64,000 nt of DNA. It comes from Lachnospiraceae bacterium. Its GTDB lineage: Bacteria; Bacillota; Clostridia; Lachnospirales; Lachnospiraceae. Within the stretch, counting starts at the first letter, position 1. The number at the start of each line of letters is the position of its first letter. Under the pieces are notes generated by a model. That model saw only the letters and a program-made list of their open reading frames with translations, was not told where the DNA came from and did no database searches. This document shows, in pieces, positions 57,509-64,000 of the stretch. Where the stretch lies: positions 62,001-126,000 of the forward strand of contig JAILLN010000044.1 of assembly GCA_024693135.1 (NCBI GenBank), read 5' to 3'. The position numbers were made by a program, and so were the translations under genes.

Positions 57509-59128
57509 ATGAAGACAATATCCGGAAAAAGCATTTTGAAGGGGATCGCAAAGGGAATCCTCAAGCGGTATCGGGAGCCGGAGCGGGACCTGCCGGGAGA
57601 GGAAATGACCGATCCCCAGGCAGAGCTTAAGAAATTTGAGGCCGCAAGGCAGAGGCTGAAGACCGCCCAGAGGAAGCTCTATGAGAAAACCAGGGTGGAA
57701 GCCGGGGAGGAAAGTGCAGAGATCTTCCTGGCCCATATGCAGATGCTGGATGACGAGATGCTGAAGGAATCCGTGACCGAGATCATCCGGCGGCAGAACC
57801 GCAGCGCGGCCTACGCCGTCCAGGTGGGCTTAAGCTCCATAGTCGGCCGGTTCCGGGCCATGGATGATCTTTATGTCAGTGCCAGGAGCGAAGACATCGC
57901 CGATCTCGCCAACGGGCTTCTGGATGAGCTCACCGGCATGGCCGCCTTTGGCGAAGAGGAAGAGGAACCCTGGATCCTGATGGCCGATACCCTGACGCCT
58001 ACGGAGCTGATGAAGCTGGACCGCAGGAAGCTTTCCGGGCTGGTGCTTTCCGGAGGGAGCGACATCTCCCATACCGCCATCCTGGCCAAGGGGATGGAAA
58101 TGCCCATGCTGGTCAAATGCGGGCCGCTGGACGAGGGATGGGAAGGGATGGAGGCAGTGCTGGACGGCTACGAGGGCGTCCTGTACCTTGAGCCCTCCAA
58201 GGAGCAGCTGGCCTTATTTGAAGGAAAACAGAAAAATGCCCAGCAGGACAAGGAAAGGCTGGAGTCCCTGAAGGGAAAGGAGTCGGTAACAAAGGACGGC
58301 AAGAGGATCCGCCTTCTTGCCAATATCAGCGATCCTTCGGAGGTGGGCGCCGTGATCGCAAACGACGCTGAGGGCGTGGGCTTATTCCGGTCGGAATTCC
58401 TGTATCTCAATGGAAGCAACTATCCGAAGGAGGAGGAGCTCCTCTTTGTGTACCGCCAGGTGCTGAAGACCCTTTTTCCCCGGCCGGTGATCATCCGTAC
58501 CTGCGATATCGGGGCGGATAAGGCTTCGGACTATATGCAGCTGAAGCCGGAGGAAAATCCTGCCCTGGGCTTAAGGGCGGTACGGTTCGCCCTTACCCAC
58601 AGGGAGGTGTTCAAGACCCAGCTCAGGGCTCTGCTCAAGGCCTCGGATTCCGGAAACCTGAGCATCATGATCCCCATGATCTCGGACATCCGGGAGGTGA
58701 GGGAGACAAAGGAGCTGTTGAAGGAATGCGAGGAGGAGCTTAAGGCAGAGGGCTTTGAGATCGGAGCCTATGAATTCGGGATCATGGTGGAGACCCCGGC
58801 GGCAGTGCTTACCGCCAGAGAGCTGGCGCGTGAGGTGGACTTCTTTTCCATCGGGACCAACGACCTGGCCCAGTATACCCTGGCCGTGGACCGGCAGGAT
58901 GCGGCCCTGGCCTCCTTCTTTCATCCGGCCCACCCCTCCGTGATGAAGGAGATCGAGATGACCGTGGAAGCAGGACATGCGGAGGGGATCCGGGTGGGCA
59001 TCTGCGGAGAGCTGGCCAGCAATCCGGAGTATACGGAAGCCTTTCTCGGCATGGGAGTGGACGAGCTCTCCGTCAGCCCCAAGAGCGTCCTGCCCCTGAG
59101 GGAGATCATCCTGTCCTGCTGTTCATGA
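57509..59128 (+). CDS. ptsI: Phosphoenolpyruvate-protein phosphotransferase (PTS enzyme I)
   Basis: A 539-residue enzyme I. The swivelling domain has the phospho-His188 in GGSDISHTAILAKGMEMP. The PEP-binding barrel has FRSEFLYL, RTCDIGADKASDYM, PALGLRAVRFAL, IMVETPAAVLTARELAREVD, FFSIGTNDLAQYTLAVDR and the catalytic-Cys site GICGELASNPEYTEAFLGMG. Its start (ISGKSILKGIAKG) is the standard one, and the chain is slightly shorter than the 570-residue average. It passes phosphate from PEP to HPr; no ptsH or EII gene is nearby. Confidence 0.93.
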   Translation: MKTISGKSILKGIAKGILKRYREPERDLPGEEMTDPQAELKKFEAARQRLKTAQRKLYEKTRVEAGEESAEIFLAHMQMLDDEMLKESVTEIIRRQNRSAAYAVQVGLSSIVGRFRAMDDLYVSARSEDIADLANGLLDELTGMAAFGEEEEEPWILMADTLTPTELMKLDRRKLSGLVLSGGSDISHTAILAKGMEMPMLVKCGPLDEGWEGMEAVLDGYEGVLYLEPSKEQLALFEGKQKNAQQDKERLESLKGKESVTKDGKRIRLLANISDPSEVGAVIANDAEGVGLFRSEFLYLNGSNYPKEEELLFVYRQVLKTLFPRPVIIRTCDIGADKASDYMQLKPEENPALGLRAVRFALTHREVFKTQLRALLKASDSGNLSIMIPMISDIREVRETKELLKECEEELKAEGFEIGAYEFGIMVETPAAVLTARELAREVDFFSIGTNDLAQYTLAVDRQDAALASFFHPAHPSVMKEIEMTVEAGHAEGIRVGICGELASNPEYTEAFLGMGVDELSVSPKSVLPLREIILSCCS

Positions 59129-59142
59129 GTCGACAATTATAC

Positions 59143-59171
59143 TTGATATTTTTTCCCTAAAACGGTATATT
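59143..59171 (+). promoter_or_regulatory. Promoter of the STAS gene
   Basis: TTGATA (59143-59148), 17 nt, TATATT (59166-59171) in a strikingly AT-rich 78-nt gap, 36 nt before the STAS start codon, which has GAAAGGAG. Confidence 0.75.
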
Positions 59172-59206: not shown

Positions 59207-59506
59207 ATGACAATTACGAAAGATCAACAGGGAAGCACGCTTACGATCAAGCTGGACGGCCGGCTGGATACCACCACAGCGCCTCAGCTGGAGGGGGAGC
59301 TGAAGTCTTCTCTGGATGGGATCACAGAGCTGATCTTTGACCTGTCCAGCCTTGCATACATCTCTTCCGCTGGCCTTAGGGTGCTGCTTTCTGCCCAGAA
59401 GGTCATGAATAAGCAGGGCAGCATGGTTGTCCGCGGTGCGAACGAGGATCTGATGGAGATATTTGATGTAACTGGTTTTGTGGATATCCTGAATATTGAG
59501 TCATAA
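59207..59506 (+). CDS. STAS-domain anti-sigma-factor antagonist
   Basis: A 99-residue SpoIIAA/RsbV-like protein: TIKLDGRLDTTTAPQLEGEL, LIFDLSSLAYISSAGLRVLL and MEIFDVTGFVDILN. The phosphorylatable Ser is one of Ser53/Ser54 in YISSAGLRVL. Such proteins bind an RsbW-like kinase when unphosphorylated and are released after phosphorylation; a SpoIIE/RsbU phosphatase resets them. Both partner types are encoded just downstream. It has its own promoter and terminator, as if made in excess over them. Confidence 0.93.
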   Translation: MTITKDQQGSTLTIKLDGRLDTTTAPQLEGELKSSLDGITELIFDLSSLAYISSAGLRVLLSAQKVMNKQGSMVVRGANEDLMEIFDVTGFVDILNIES

Positions 59507-59538
59507 GATTTCCATGGGATCGGTCATGATGGACATGA

Positions 59539-59569
59539 ACGGATGTTTGTAACAGGACATCCGTTTTTG
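59539..59569 (+). terminator. Rho-independent terminator after the STAS gene
   Basis: ACGGATGT (59539-59546) pairs perfectly with ACATCCGT (59557-59564), then TTTTGT. It lies between STAS and the MATE fusion, so read-through or a separate weak promoter must serve the next genes. Confidence 0.85.
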
Positions 59570-59594
59570 TGCTGTTTAAAAGGAGATATGCTTC

Positions 59595-61325
59595 GTGGGA
59601 TCAGACGGCATCCTGATGAAAAAGTACCGGCAGTATCTCCTGCCGTCCATATTGACCTCTCTTGCCTTTGCCCTAAATGAATTTGTAGACTGCATGGTGA
59701 TCTCCAACCTTCTCGGGAAGGACGCCCTGGCGGTCGCAAATCTCTCTTGTCCGGTCATGCTTTTCTTTGCGGCCTGCTATGTGCTTCTGGGAAGCGGCGG
59801 TTCTACCCGTTATGCCCTGCTTTTGGGGCGCTGGGATCAGGCGGGGGCAGGAAAGGTATTTCGGATATCCATGATCTTAGGGGTCATGAGCGGGATAATG
59901 CTGCTGCTTGCGGGGCTTTTATTCCGGAAACCCATGACCATGCTGCTCTGCGCAGAAGAAAGCCTCCGGCCCATGTTTTCCGACTACTTTACGGCTCTCC
60001 TTTTTACGGCTCCGGTGCTTACCACCATGCTCACCTTTGTCTGCTTCCTGCCCCCCAGCGGGGCTCCGGTGGTGGCTACCGTGGTAAACATCACGGCAAA
60101 CGGGCTGAACCTGATCATGGATTATGTCTATATCCGGATATTCGGCATGGGGATGAGGGGAGCCGCCCTGGCCACGGTCACCGGCTATCTGGCGGGAGCC
60201 CTGATCGTGGCGGTCCTTTGGAAGCAAAAAAAGCTGAAGATCACGGATTCGCCGGTGAGCCTCCGGGATATGAAGATGACCGGCATGATCCTTGCCCTGG
60301 GCGCGCCCCCGGCCATGCTCCAGATCTGCTATGCCGTCAAATACGCCTATAGCAATCATCTTTCCATGGTCTATGGGGGGCGGACGGGAGTCGTGGCATT
60401 TACCCTCTGCCTGCAGACCTTCTCCCTGGCCTCGGTCTTCCTTCTGGGAGTGGCGGATACGGCACAGCCCCTGCTTGCCATGCTCAGCGGGCAGAAGGAT
60501 TATAAAGGGGAAAAGGCGGTACTGAAACGGTCCTACCTGCTGCAGATCCTGTTTTCCCTGGTGCTGGTCTTTTTCTTTGAGGTATTTCCCACAGGGATCG
60601 CCCTGCTTTACAGCGTAAGGGATGAGGAGACCCTCGCCATTGCGGTGCGGGGCATAAGGATCTTTGCCATGACCTATCTGTTCCGCAGCGTCTGCATCCA
60701 GTGCATGCGCTTTCTCCAGGTGGAGCAGAAAAACGGGTACGCCATGGCCATCAGCCTGTTTGACGGGCTCTCCATCCTGCCCATCGGCTTTATTCTTTGC
60801 CGGAACGTGGGGCTGGACGGGCTTTTTATGGCTTATCCCCTGTCGGCCCTGATCCTGCTCCTTTCCATCACGGCCGCAAGCTTCGTGGCATGGAAGAAAA
60901 ATCCCGGAATGTATTCCTCACTTTTTTTAGTCCGGACGGATATGGGAATCCAGGGGGTATTGCAGCTTACCATCACAGACCGGCCGGAAGATATCTCGGA
61001 AGCCAGCGAGCAGATGATCGATTTCTGCCGGGAGAACGGGGTGTCGGGAAAGCAGGCTTTCCGGGTGGGTCTTGCCTGTGAGGAGATGGCGGTTTATACA
61101 CAGAATCATCGAAAAGATACGGGAGACATCGATCTTTTGCTCCGGATCAGGGAACACGAGATGACCTTGAATTTCCGGAGCATCGGGGAGCCTTTCGATC
61201 TCATGCACCGGACGGATGAAGATATGCCGGAAAATATCCTGCTTCTCCAGAAGGCGGCTACATCGATCTCCTACGACTATATCATGGGAATGAACAGCAC
61301 ACAGCTTGTGGTAGAGAGGAATTAA
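59595..61325 (+). CDS. MATE-family transporter fused to an RsbW-like GHKL domain
   Basis: A 576-residue protein. Residues about 1-445 are a MATE efflux transporter with twelve hydrophobic segments (YLLPSILTSLAFALNEFVDC, LLGSGGSTRYALLLGRWDQA, TFVCFLPPSGAPVVATVVNI). Residues about 455-576 match the anti-sigma kinase (HATPase_c_2) pattern: DRPEDISEASEQMIDFCREN, FRVGLACEEMAVY, IDLLLRIREHEMTLNFRSIG. The usual N-box Asn is Tyr501 (after Glu497), and the Asp of the first G box is Ser529, so ATP binding may be lost. GTG 59595 is chosen because AAAGGAG lies 10 nt before it; ATG 59616 is an alternative. It is followed after 2 nt by the ATP-grasp gene. Confidence 0.85.
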   Translation: MGSDGILMKKYRQYLLPSILTSLAFALNEFVDCMVISNLLGKDALAVANLSCPVMLFFAACYVLLGSGGSTRYALLLGRWDQAGAGKVFRISMILGVMSGIMLLLAGLLFRKPMTMLLCAEESLRPMFSDYFTALLFTAPVLTTMLTFVCFLPPSGAPVVATVVNITANGLNLIMDYVYIRIFGMGMRGAALATVTGYLAGALIVAVLWKQKKLKITDSPVSLRDMKMTGMILALGAPPAMLQICYAVKYAYSNHLSMVYGGRTGVVAFTLCLQTFSLASVFLLGVADTAQPLLAMLSGQKDYKGEKAVLKRSYLLQILFSLVLVFFFEVFPTGIALLYSVRDEETLAIAVRGIRIFAMTYLFRSVCIQCMRFLQVEQKNGYAMAISLFDGLSILPIGFILCRNVGLDGLFMAYPLSALILLLSITAASFVAWKKNPGMYSSLFLVRTDMGIQGVLQLTITDRPEDISEASEQMIDFCRENGVSGKQAFRVGLACEEMAVYTQNHRKDTGDIDLLLRIREHEMTLNFRSIGEPFDLMHRTDEDMPENILLLQKAATSISYDYIMGMNSTQLVVERN

Positions 61326-61327
61326 AC

Positions 61328-62680
61328 ATGAAGATCACGATTTACAGCACGGGAGGGAACGATCCGGATTCACTTCATTCTGCCGTGCACAGCTTTTATC
61401 CCACCAGGGCGGAGGACTGGGATCGGGTGGCGCTTATGTATCCGGAGCATTCCTTTACCGTATGCTGTTGTGTGTCGGAAGGGCATCTGGTGGATGTGGA
61501 GGGTTCCAAAGTCCTCTCCCGCCCGGAAAAGGTAAAGACCATCATCCTGCCGCTGGACGCGGATCTCGGGGAGCTGGCCCGCATCATTGCCTCGACCAAG
61601 CCCGATGTGGCCTATGCCGCGCCTCTTCCCAACGTCGCCTACGACTGGAATCCGCTCCGGGATGCCATGGTGGGGGAAGAATTAAGGAAGAGGGGGATCT
61701 GTGTGATCTGCCCGGAGGTTTCCCTTGCGGAGGCCGCCTTTGAGAAAAACAAGACCGCTGAGCTTTTGCGGAAGCATGGCTTCTCCACGGCCAAGGGAGT
61801 CTATGTACAGATGTCCCTTTACAGGGCAGAGGAAAAAAACAGCATCATCCTGAATAATGTCTACCGGGAATATATCCTGAGGCAGATCGATGACCTGCGT
61901 TTTCCCGTGATCGTAAAAGCCGCATCCGGGGCAGGCTCTGTGGGGCTTTCCGTGGCAGAGACGAAGGAGCGCTTAGAGGAGATCCTCTTATCGGGGGACC
62001 CGAATGCGGATGTCATGGTGGAAGAAAAGCTTGAGGGGGAAAACTTCGGCATCGAGATCTATGGCGTGCCCGGCGCCTACCGGGTATATGAACCGATCCT
62101 TTTCACCACGGCAAAGGAAGGCATCACGGATCCCTTTGCCAGCATCAAGTACGGACCGGTAAGGAGCAGGAAATACAAGCTGGAGGAGCTCCGTGCCCAG
62201 ATGCTCTCCATGGCGGAGGCGCTTTGCTTCAGGGGAGGGGTGGAGCTGGATCTCATTTTCCATGGAGGGGAATGGACGGTAGTGGACTTAAATCCCAGGT
62301 TTTCGCTGCTTTCCCAGATGGTGGGAGCCACAGCGGACAAGTCTGTGCCCCAGCTCATAGCCGAGGCCGCCATAGGAGGGCTGTCTCCGGCAGACCCGGG
62401 TGAGCTGAAGCTTGCCGTGGATTTCAAGACAAGGCCTGCCTCCCGGGAAGAGCTTAAAAGGCTCAGGACGGATTTTCCCAGCGTGAGGTCTGTGTTGAGT
62501 TTCCGGCTGGGGATCACGGAGACAGAAACCGTATCCTACAGTGAGATCGACGTGGGGGGATTTGAGGATAATGCACAATTGCTCCGGGAGCTTGAAAGGA
62601 TCAGCGAAAAGTACGGCGATCTGGTGACTTCCGGGATTGTGGAACGAATACGGGAAATGATCAAAGGATTGGAGGCGTGA
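61328..62680 (+). CDS. ATP-grasp ligase (D-Ala-D-Ala-ligase-like)
   Basis: A 450-residue cytoplasmic enzyme. The N-terminal part (YSTGGNDPDSLHSAVHSFYP) is not familiar. The ATP-grasp core shows FPVIVKAASGAGSVGLSVAE near residue 192, VMVEEKLEGENFGIEIYGVP, and GVELDLIFHGGEWTVVDLNP with the Asp/Asn metal ligands. Such enzymes join a carboxylate to an amine using ATP. Its acceptor is unknown. It lies 2 nt after the MATE-GHKL gene and 9 nt before the sensor phosphatase, so it belongs to the same operon. It could make or modify the transported compound, or could act on a signalling partner. Confidence 0.8.
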   Translation: MKITIYSTGGNDPDSLHSAVHSFYPTRAEDWDRVALMYPEHSFTVCCCVSEGHLVDVEGSKVLSRPEKVKTIILPLDADLGELARIIASTKPDVAYAAPLPNVAYDWNPLRDAMVGEELRKRGICVICPEVSLAEAAFEKNKTAELLRKHGFSTAKGVYVQMSLYRAEEKNSIILNNVYREYILRQIDDLRFPVIVKAASGAGSVGLSVAETKERLEEILLSGDPNADVMVEEKLEGENFGIEIYGVPGAYRVYEPILFTTAKEGITDPFASIKYGPVRSRKYKLEELRAQMLSMAEALCFRGGVELDLIFHGGEWTVVDLNPRFSLLSQMVGATADKSVPQLIAEAAIGGLSPADPGELKLAVDFKTRPASREELKRLRTDFPSVRSVLSFRLGITETETVSYSEIDVGGFEDNAQLLRELERISEKYGDLVTSGIVERIREMIKGLEA

Positions 62681-62689
62681 GGACAGCAT

Positions 62690-64000
62690 ATGGAAAAGAA
62701 CAGTTTTAGGAGGAAACCCATCCGGGAGAGGGTGCTTTTGATCGTGCTGGTGATCGCCATGGGGTCATTGATCACCACCAGCGGGGTGGGCATCGTCAGC
62801 ATGCTGAGGATCCAGGACAAAAGCGAAGCTGCCCTGACGGAACGGATGCAGAACAATCTTTACAACATTGCAGTGGACAGGGCGGAATATGCGGAATCCG
62901 AGCTCGGTGCCTATGCGGATTACGTGCAGGGCTTTGCCACCTACATCCATGGGCTTTATACCGAACCGGATGCTTATGTGAAAAAGCCGCTGCTTTCGCA
63001 TGACCCCAAAAATGCGGGGAAATATGTGCTGCAGAGGGCTTTTGCAAACGAACAGGTATCGGAAGAGGCGGTCAGCGAGGAAGCATCCCTGATCAGCAAT
63101 ACGGCACAGGAGTTTTATCCGGTGATCTCGGCCCACTCGGATGTGATCATGGGCATCTACGGAGGTACGGAGTCCGGGTTTTCCTTTGCCTACGACATCT
63201 ATTCGGATAAGAAGCTGGACGGGTACTACGACCACTACTCCCGGGTATGGTATCAGCAGGCGAAGGAGGAGGGGAAGGTCTGCTTCACGGATGTATACCT
63301 GGATTCCTTCGGACGGGGCCTGACCATCTCCTGTGCGGCACCGTTTTATGATGAAAAGGATCAATTTGCCGGGGTCGTGGCCATGGATATCCTGATCTCG
63401 GATCTGTATGCGGCCATACTGAACCTGGATCTCGGGGATGAGGAGGCGTATGCGTTTCTGGTGGATAATTCCGGAAATGTCATTTCCCCGGATGAGGAGG
63501 TGAGAACGATCCATGATGATCCGGATCTGGATCAGGCTACGGAGGATAAGATCCTGAATGGGCAGACCGGGGTATCCCTTACGGAAAAGGGAGTTTATTA
63601 CGCCTATACGCCGGTGGAATCCGTATCCTGGAAGCTCTGCATCCATGTGCCGCAGTCCTATGTGCTGGCGCCGGCCAGGGAGATGGATGAGCAGATCATG
63701 GAATCCATATTGCTCTTTACCTTGATCCTGGTATTGATCATCCTGATCGTGACGCTTTTCGTCCAGCGTTTTGCCAACAGCCTTACGAAGCCGCTGATCG
63801 CCCTGAGCGAGGATGCGAGGATCATCAGCGGAGGCGACCTCGAGCACAGGGCGCAGGTATTCCATAACGACGAGATCGGGGATGTGGCCACGAACTTCAA
63901 CGACATGGCGATCGCCCTGAAGCAGTATATCGAGGATCTGACCGCGGTGACGGCGGAGAAGGAACGGATCGGGGCGGAGCTCAATGTGGCTACCCAGATC
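62690..64000 (+). CDS. Membrane sensor, probable SpoIIE/RsbU-type phosphatase (N-terminal part)
   Basis: The first 437 codons; the gene runs beyond the window. A membrane segment at about residues 13-35 is followed by an external double-Cache domain (YYDHYSRVWYQQAKEEGKVC, GRGLTISCAAPFYDEKDQFA), a second membrane segment near 340-360 (ILLFTLILVLIILIVTLFVQ) and a HAMP domain (TKPLIALSEDARIISGGDLE). The last visible residues, TAEKERIGAELNVATQI, are the standard linker into a PP2C/SpoIIE phosphatase that would dephosphorylate the STAS protein. The phosphatase itself is not in the window, so this is inferred. Confidence 0.85.
   Translation, partial: MEKNSFRRKPIRERVLLIVLVIAMGSLITTSGVGIVSMLRIQDKSEAALTERMQNNLYNIAVDRAEYAESELGAYADYVQGFATYIHGLYTEPDAYVKKPLLSHDPKNAGKYVLQRAFANEQVSEEAVSEEASLISNTAQEFYPVISAHSDVIMGIYGGTESGFSFAYDIYSDKKLDGYYDHYSRVWYQQAKEEGKVCFTDVYLDSFGRGLTISCAAPFYDEKDQFAGVVAMDILISDLYAAILNLDLGDEEAYAFLVDNSGNVISPDEEVRTIHDDPDLDQATEDKILNGQTGVSLTEKGVYYAYTPVESVSWKLCIHVPQSYVLAPAREMDEQIMESILLFTLILVLIILIVTLFVQRFANSLTKPLIALSEDARIISGGDLEHRAQVFHNDEIGDVATNFNDMAIALKQYIEDLTAVTAEKERIGAELNVATQI

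Follow-up and report, generated by a model that had tools for sequence, protein, structure and literature searches.

The described partner switches closest to the locus reported here are RsbU-RsbV-RsbW and SpoIIE-SpoIIAA-SpoIIAB of Bacillus, which comprise a STAS antagonist of the phospho-serine type, a SpoIIE-type PP2C phosphatase and an RsbW-type kinase. The same components recur in an operon that we analyzed in a 64,000-nucleotide stretch of a Lachnospiraceae bacterium genome (the window; positions 62001-126000 of contig G000:C54, JAILLN010000044.1), together with a MATE transporter whose C-terminal domain has the RsbW/SpoIIAB fold. What sets this locus apart from the Bacillus switches is that the same operon holds a second RsbW-like domain, lacking an ATP site and joined to a membrane pump, and that the genome has no SigB/F/G-family sigma factor over cut-off. 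We conclude with high confidence that this MATE transporter belongs to a partner-switch operon with a separate kinase protein, and that its RsbW-like domain is conserved and unlikely to bind ATP.

Some described systems of this kind act on targets other than sigma factors. In SiaA-SiaB-SiaC-SiaD of Pseudomonas aeruginosa, SiaC directly binds and activates the enzyme SiaD (PMC8457831). SiaA is also the best-scoring NCBIfam model for the sensor-phosphatase of our locus (87 bits, far under the cut-off of 700), and a SiaB-SiaC structure appeared in the fold search of the MATE C-terminal domain (E = 8.5e-4). The Sia target differs from the RsbW-bearing transporter considered here, being a diguanylate cyclase recognized through its stalk (PMC8457831). 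MlaB, a single-domain STAS protein, binds the transporter component MlaF and is required for assembly and function (excerpts of PMC7367683), but MlaF is an ABC ATPase with no GHKL domain, and phosphorylation of MlaB is, in the same excerpts, merely proposed (PMC7367683). SLC26/SulP proteins likewise carry a partner-switch-type domain on a secondary transporter; there, according to parts of PMC8256260, the STAS side is fused, whereas here it is the RsbW side. There are also partner switches for which no sigma factor is known and for which the target is still under discussion, as in the case of Rhodobacter RbaV/W (PMC3999984). In openly licensed papers we found nothing on RsbW-like domains fused to transporters.

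A five-gene partner-switch operon

On the + strand the five genes follow one another head to tail, separated by gaps of 88, 2, 9 and 16 bp, in the order STAS, MATE fusion, ATP-grasp, dCache-HAMP-SpoIIE and soluble RsbW-type kinase (Table 1). The first four had been named in the original prediction, made from the window alone, and all are present and supported by Pfam. Its proposal that the Cache-HAMP sensor leads into a SpoIIE/RsbU phosphatase was borne out past position 64000: the contig continues beyond the window, with an overlap that a script check found identical to the extended sequence, and there the sensor ends in a SpoIIE/PP2C domain (E = 1e-43) with intact GGDFYD, DVSGKG, YTDGV and DDITM, the usual metal-site motifs of PP2C phosphatases. 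The fifth gene was missing from that prediction because the window ends before 64728.

Judged by its motifs, the product of this fifth gene is a complete RsbW-type kinase, with N-box EEIYVN, G1 box DAGIPYDP and G2 box GGLGIY all intact. It resembles RsbW but scores under the RsbW cut-offs of NCBIfam, and it is the sole HATPase_c_2 match in the genome at E ≤ 1e-8. Five weaker matches exist, of which one exceeds the cut-off; on visual inspection most resemble sensor histidine kinases, leaving aside one of 840 residues. Since the draft genome (3.19 Mb, 87.8% complete) holds three SpoIIE and four STAS matches, this single kinase may serve more than one operon.

The STAS protein scores 70.4 bits against TIGR00377 (ant_ant_sig; cut-off 53.45) and has an SSAG phospho-site motif at residues 53-56, in which Ser54 is, from the sequence, the likely phospho-acceptor; this Ser is present in 38/38 STAS-only proteins of the fetched loci. 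The ATP-grasp protein reaches 30.9 bits against Dala_Dala_lig_C (cut-off 24), and it matched no specific NCBIfam family over cut-off; its best PDB sequence match had E = 0.006.

The RsbW-like domain of the MATE transporter

The MATE fusion consists of a transporter (residues 1-440) and an RsbW/SpoIIAB-like domain (residues ~454-574). The transporter part matches MatE with 89 bits in two stretches, corresponding to the two MatE repeats, and scores 132 bits against TIGR00797, below the cut-off of 147. The full-length AlphaFold model (predicted local distance difference test, pLDDT, 90.6; predicted template modelling score 0.91) matches MATE structures in Foldseek, with a template modelling score of 0.87 by target for 6hfb.

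The original prediction had called the C-terminus HATPase_c_2-like, which did not hold for the single sequence (E = 0.011, 16.1 bits, under the Pfam gathering cut-off of 27.4) and did hold at the level of profile and structure. A profile of 43 MATE C-terminal domains, searched against PDB sequences, returned Bacillus subtilis RsbW as its top hit (E = 7.9e-5), followed by a histidine kinase and, in places three to six, by SpoIIAB. With the domain modelled alone (pLDDT 88), the top 18/18 Foldseek matches in the PDB were RsbW, SpoIIAB or mycobacterial anti-SigF chains, with histidine kinases ranking below them; the best match had E = 3.6e-7, and RsbW 6m37 was among the matches.

The N-box, G1 and G2 boxes of GHKL domains supply the residues of the ATP site. 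In the MATE domain, the N-box EEMAVY keeps the Glu pair (E496, E497) and has Tyr501 in place of the Asn, the G1 box RSIGEPF has Ser529 in place of the Asp, and the G2 box has no glycines (no GxG). These losses are common to the close orthologs. Given the loss of ATP-site residues together with an intact soluble kinase, the MATE protein is unlikely to be the kinase in this operon, contrary to the role first proposed for it.

We compared our protein with seven orthologs at 55-64% identity, two of them near copies. Over the 28 pairs of these eight proteins, mean identity is 60.9% in the domain and 61.8% in the pump, and 46 domain residues are invariant. The nonsynonymous divergence (dN) of the domain is lower than that of the pump part in 7/7 pairs with our protein, with synonymous divergence (dS) saturated. 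A degenerate domain as conserved as the pump it is attached to must serve some purpose apart from ATP chemistry. In a search of a plasmid collection, the MATE protein matched 144 records, none covering 80% of the query.

Table 1. Coordinates of the operon genes and of other features (window positions unless another contig is named)
Feature	Position	Strand	Details
STAS-only protein, anti-sigma-antagonist type	59207..59506	+	99 aa; Pfam STAS E = 2.1e-16
MATE transporter with RsbW/SpoIIAB-like GHKL domain	59595..61325	+	576 aa; GTG start; MatE E = 3e-25
ATP-grasp ligase	61328..62680	+	450 aa; 2 bp after MATE gene; Dala_Dala_lig_C E = 2.4e-7, over cut-off
dCache-HAMP membrane sensor with C-terminal SpoIIE/PP2C phosphatase	62690..64711 (past window end 64000)	+	673 aa; dCache_1 E = 3e-17, HAMP E = 3e-10
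Soluble RsbW-type serine kinase (by motifs)	64728-65153 (contig C54:126728-127153), wholly past window	+	141 aa; HATPase_c_2 E = 3.1e-19, over cut-off
Promoter-like site TTGATA-17-TATATT	59143..59171	+	35 bp before STAS start; 10/12 consensus positions, consensus scan alone
ptsI (phosphotransferase system enzyme I)	57509-59128	+	78 bp upstream of STAS gene
SDF fusion of the same genome, degenerate RsbW-like N-terminal domain	G000:C15:62552-64135 (L156 5550-7187)	-	

The promoter-like site upstream of the STAS gene may be due to chance, as two such sites were found against a mean of 3.9 in shuffled sequence. Downstream of the kinase gene lies a gene for a protein with a CW_7 repeat.

Fused transporters and their gene neighborhoods

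A single-sequence search with the domain gave matches in 37/299 genomes of the family, and the 40 places fetched from those genomes held 39 MATE fusions and one SDF fusion (L073; loci are given by L numbers). MATE fusions occur in at least 26/391 genomes of the class, a lower bound because three candidates per genome were scored, and 20/20 of the places read there have the domain. Among 398 genomes drawn from the phylum, eight carry MATE fusions (E ≤ 1e-100), and five of these eight belong to other classes. Among the named relatives, metagenome genomes from Lachnospiraceae, Selenomonadaceae and Oscillospiraceae of the rumen or gut predominate; Butyrivibrio sp. MC2021 and Lachnospiraceae bacterium AC2029 are also represented.

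Across 97 fused MATEs the N-box Glu is nearly invariant; the N-box Asn and G1 Asp are both retained in 52, and the Asn is lost in 45. GHKL proteins from the same loci that are not fused to a MATE keep E, N, D and G in 17/17 canonical cases. On a quick tree built from the transporter part (94 fused rows and 10 plain ones, with some long branches; L108, counted as 'plain', is a fusion truncated by a contig end), our protein falls within a 17-row clade that has lost the Asn throughout. The Asn state changes at least seven times on this tree, in a direction that cannot be inferred from it.

Fused MATEs lie close to partner-switch genes far more often than expected. In 20 genomes with fused MATEs, which hold 70 SpoIIE and 77 STAS matches at E ≤ 1e-5, 17/45 fused loci have SpoIIE within 10 kb (1.17 expected) and 17/45 have STAS within that distance (1.38 expected). 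In 300,000 simulations the counts never exceeded 8 loci for SpoIIE and 9 for STAS, against the 17 observed in each case. In several instances fused loci share a contig, and p-values therefore overstate independence. The 45 loci (36 plus 9 added later) are those fused MATEs that were read, and the genomes may hold more; some positions were estimated from locus coordinates, and genome sizes were rounded. Plain MATEs behave differently: in seven of these genomes, and among the matches listed, SpoIIE lies within 10 kb of 10/14 fused versus 2/76 plain MATEs, and STAS within 10 kb of 9/14 versus 3/76. For this comparison all 14 fused proteins were read, and the 76 plain ones were judged by a frame shorter than 560 aa, with fragments of 204, 206 and 336 aa counted as plain. 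Two MatE rows of one protein were merged, and MATEs of 569 aa and 718 aa (G116), both without an RsbW-like domain, were dropped.

A STAS-only protein, a PP2C and a kinase, some as fused chains, are all found within 8 kb of 16/97 fused MATEs, including L041, L062, L091 and L129, the last in another family of the same taxonomic order. In the relative G116 (99% complete), the single SpoIIE, the single HATPase_c_2 kinase at E ≤ 1e-8 and the single STAS-only protein all cluster with the one fused MATE found; its other STAS match sits in a 554-aa frame, and the only MATE of atypical length in that genome bears a different domain that is not RsbW-like. An ATP-grasp gene and then a Cache-PP2C gene follow the MATE gene in 7/7 close orthologs, forming a fixed unit.

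Other arrangements of these domains were seen along the way. Chains of ~520-535 aa that join an N-terminal STAS to a C-terminal GHKL kinase occur near fused MATEs at L075 16226-17803, L113 7142-8701, L115 10852-12438 and L122 12705-14309. In the genome under study, a plain MATE gene is convergent with a second PP2C gene (L132 6075-9250), a 407-aa protein with a C-terminal STAS directly precedes another plain MATE (L131 5946-8852), and a 101-aa STAS protein lies between an ABC ATPase gene and contractile-injection baseplate-like genes (L134 6724-10940; both labels by eye).

Ligase genes are frequent neighbors. For 47/97 fused MATEs, a carboxylate-activating ligase is encoded on the same strand no more than 3 kb away. 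After dereplication, in which 18 near-copy locus ids were dropped by hand, the count was 30/78 fused MATEs versus 14/208 control genes (from the same loci, at least 4 kb away) and 1/11 plain MATEs of the same loci. The ligases include two kinds of ATP-grasp, ATPgrasp_ST, GH3 and large proteins with AMP-binding domains. One of the ATP-grasp kinds is similar to DdaF, dapdiamide A synthase, under its cut-off, and the two large proteins scanned against Pfam (L063, L136) are nonribosomal peptide synthetases (NRPSs) ending in a reductase-type domain. These ligases point to a small amide or peptide-like product as the likely cargo, and the fused MATEs near NRPS genes are possible exporters for gut and rumen NRPS clusters. 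Large AMP-binding-domain genes, probably encoding NRPSs, stand beside or within ~1.5 kb of the fused MATE at L040, L048, L050, L057, L103, L118, L119, L121, L125 and L136.

RsbW-like domains are also attached to transporters of other types. SDF dicarboxylate symporters with an N-terminal RsbW-like domain were found at 31 places in 23/299 family genomes, counting matches that start within the first 15 model positions and reach at least 514. A profile of the SDF-fused domains matched our MATE domain with 98.6% probability (E = 6.6e-16); the symporter domain of L062 gave 15% in hhalign when used alone and a strong match (98.6%) only with the profile of fetched symporter domains. In 19 distinct SDF fusions that were read, the first Glu is kept in 19/19, the N-box Asn is absent in 17/19 and the G1 Asp in 19/19. 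At L157 a STAS gene, an SDF symporter gene with an RsbW-like domain and two PP2C genes follow one another, with 8 bp from the STAS end to the symporter gene (reading-frame ends being counted without the stop codon). STAS lies within 5 kb of 3/17 SDF fusions (0.31 expected, p = 0.003); for SpoIIE the count is 1/17, which is not significant, and the link is weaker than for MATE fusions. Near a fused-MATE operon, L044 3156-4247 encodes an amino-acid ABC transporter ATPase with an RsbW-like C-terminal domain (hhalign 96%). The same domain occurs in a shorter, 180-aa frame near a fused-MATE operon at L091 8892-9431.

Proposed signal-gated export and its alternatives

From the computed fold, motifs, gene order and gene associations we propose a signal-gated export operon, a mechanism that, taken as a whole, we hold to be slightly better than an even bet. 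The dCache domain would sense an extracellular small molecule and control the PP2C domain; following the established roles of these families, the PP2C domain would dephosphorylate the STAS protein and the soluble kinase would re-phosphorylate it. We infer that unphosphorylated STAS would bind the RsbW-like domain, which MATE topology places at the cytoplasmic end of the transporter, and that this domain would serve as a dead-kinase receiver in place of the classical anti-sigma factor. Binding would alter the activity of the pump, with either sign, and the ATP-grasp product, perhaps amide- or peptide-like, would be exported only under the right signal. The output of the switch would be transport, not transcription.

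Several observations weigh against this proposal. Of the seven close orthologs, none has a soluble kinase gene next to it and one (L086) has an adjacent STAS gene, so the five-gene set is not a conserved unit and the core consists of MATE, ATP-grasp and PP2C. Short-frame HATPase_c_2 proteins do occur elsewhere in 15/15 named-relative genomes searched; the E-value is 5.9e-9 in one of these genomes and ≤ 1.2e-18 in the other 14. Of the three plain MATEs with STAS within 10 kb, two belong to this genome, among the matches listed. The co-occurrence of STAS, ATP-grasp and SpoIIE genes with MATE fusions, suggested earlier, was found in part: STAS and PP2C are enriched relative to plain MATEs and ligases are frequent, but for 45/97 fused MATEs there is no STAS and no PP2C gene within 8 kb, in some cases because the contig ends. 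With STAS and kinase genes often distant from the fused MATE, STAS, if it is the partner, must often act in trans. We had also predicted that loss of the N-box Asn would accompany an adjacent soluble kinase, and this failed, the kinase being adjacent in 9/45 fused MATEs that lost the Asn and 12/52 that kept it (p = 0.81). The 52 that keep it may still bind ATP.

The last point bears on the alternative that the MATE protein's own GHKL domain phosphorylates STAS, which would make the pump the kinase-bearing component. The RsbW fold and the nearly invariant N-box Glu are compatible with this, and members that retain both Asn and G1 Asp may be active kinases. Here, the Asn is lost, as in all 17 rows of the clade, the G1 Asp is a Ser, the G2 glycines are absent, and a canonical kinase gene starts 16 bp after the phosphatase gene; we consider the alternative improbable for this operon. 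The idea that the MATE stands in for a missing kinase was rejected once the kinase gene was found past the window end. A decaying relic of a gene fusion would account for the missing catalytic residues, but it sits so badly with a domain identity equal to that of the pump, the 46 invariant residues and a dN below that of the pump in every pair (dS saturated) that we rejected this reading as highly improbable. It is doubtful, though less so, that the domain is a structural or dimerization module, or a sensor of the ligase product, acting without STAS while the switch controls another part of the operon such as the ligase. RsbW and SpoIIAB form dimers, and the ortholog core of MATE, ATP-grasp and PP2C mostly lacks an adjoining STAS; against this, MATE fusions co-locate with STAS and PP2C, SDF fusions do so more weakly with STAS, and the best structural matches of the domain are STAS-binding kinases.

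A classical partner switch is the remaining alternative, with the soluble kinase as anti-sigma factor for a distant sigma factor and the MATE domain as a mere STAS sink or a by-product of operon fusion. The resemblance of the kinase to RsbW, if under the RsbW cut-offs, speaks for it, as do the close orthologs, which have the kinase and mostly STAS too away from the fused MATE. The earlier statement that no sigma factor gene is adjacent holds for the genes read. Over the curated cut-off, SigB/F/G-family sigma factors number zero in this genome and zero in 15 of the 21 other genomes tested; G116, too, has none. We rejected a SigB/F/G-type target here, bearing in mind that only 87.8% of the genome is covered by the completeness estimate. 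The nearest non-RpoD candidate is a 258-aa protein of FliA/WhiG type, and other sigma factors of extracytoplasmic function (ECF) size are present, which leaves the classical switch some room; on balance we regard it as unlikely. The lack of a SigB/F/G-type sigma factor over cut-off makes a direct effect on the pump a sensible model.

Viewed beyond this operon, the data tentatively suggest, at a little less than even probability, that Clostridia and other Bacillota possess a class of switchable transporters, in which RsbW-type domains, often without an ATP site, would act as STAS receivers on at least three unrelated types (MATE, SDF and the amino-acid ABC ATPase), and partner switching would control transport directly. 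Its MATE branch would comprise exporters for ATP-grasp, GH3 or NRPS ligase clusters, with the receiver domain perhaps working as an on/off valve. This genome and G116 each have a pump with an RsbW-type receiver, one strong kinase and no SigB/F/G sigma factor detected; such a pump offers a concrete, testable non-transcriptional target for a partner switch. If the proposed mechanism is true, bacteria would gate natural-product export post-translationally through a switch so far described chiefly for transcription, and a fused MATE gene would serve as a marker for gut and rumen biosynthetic clusters with signal-dependent export.

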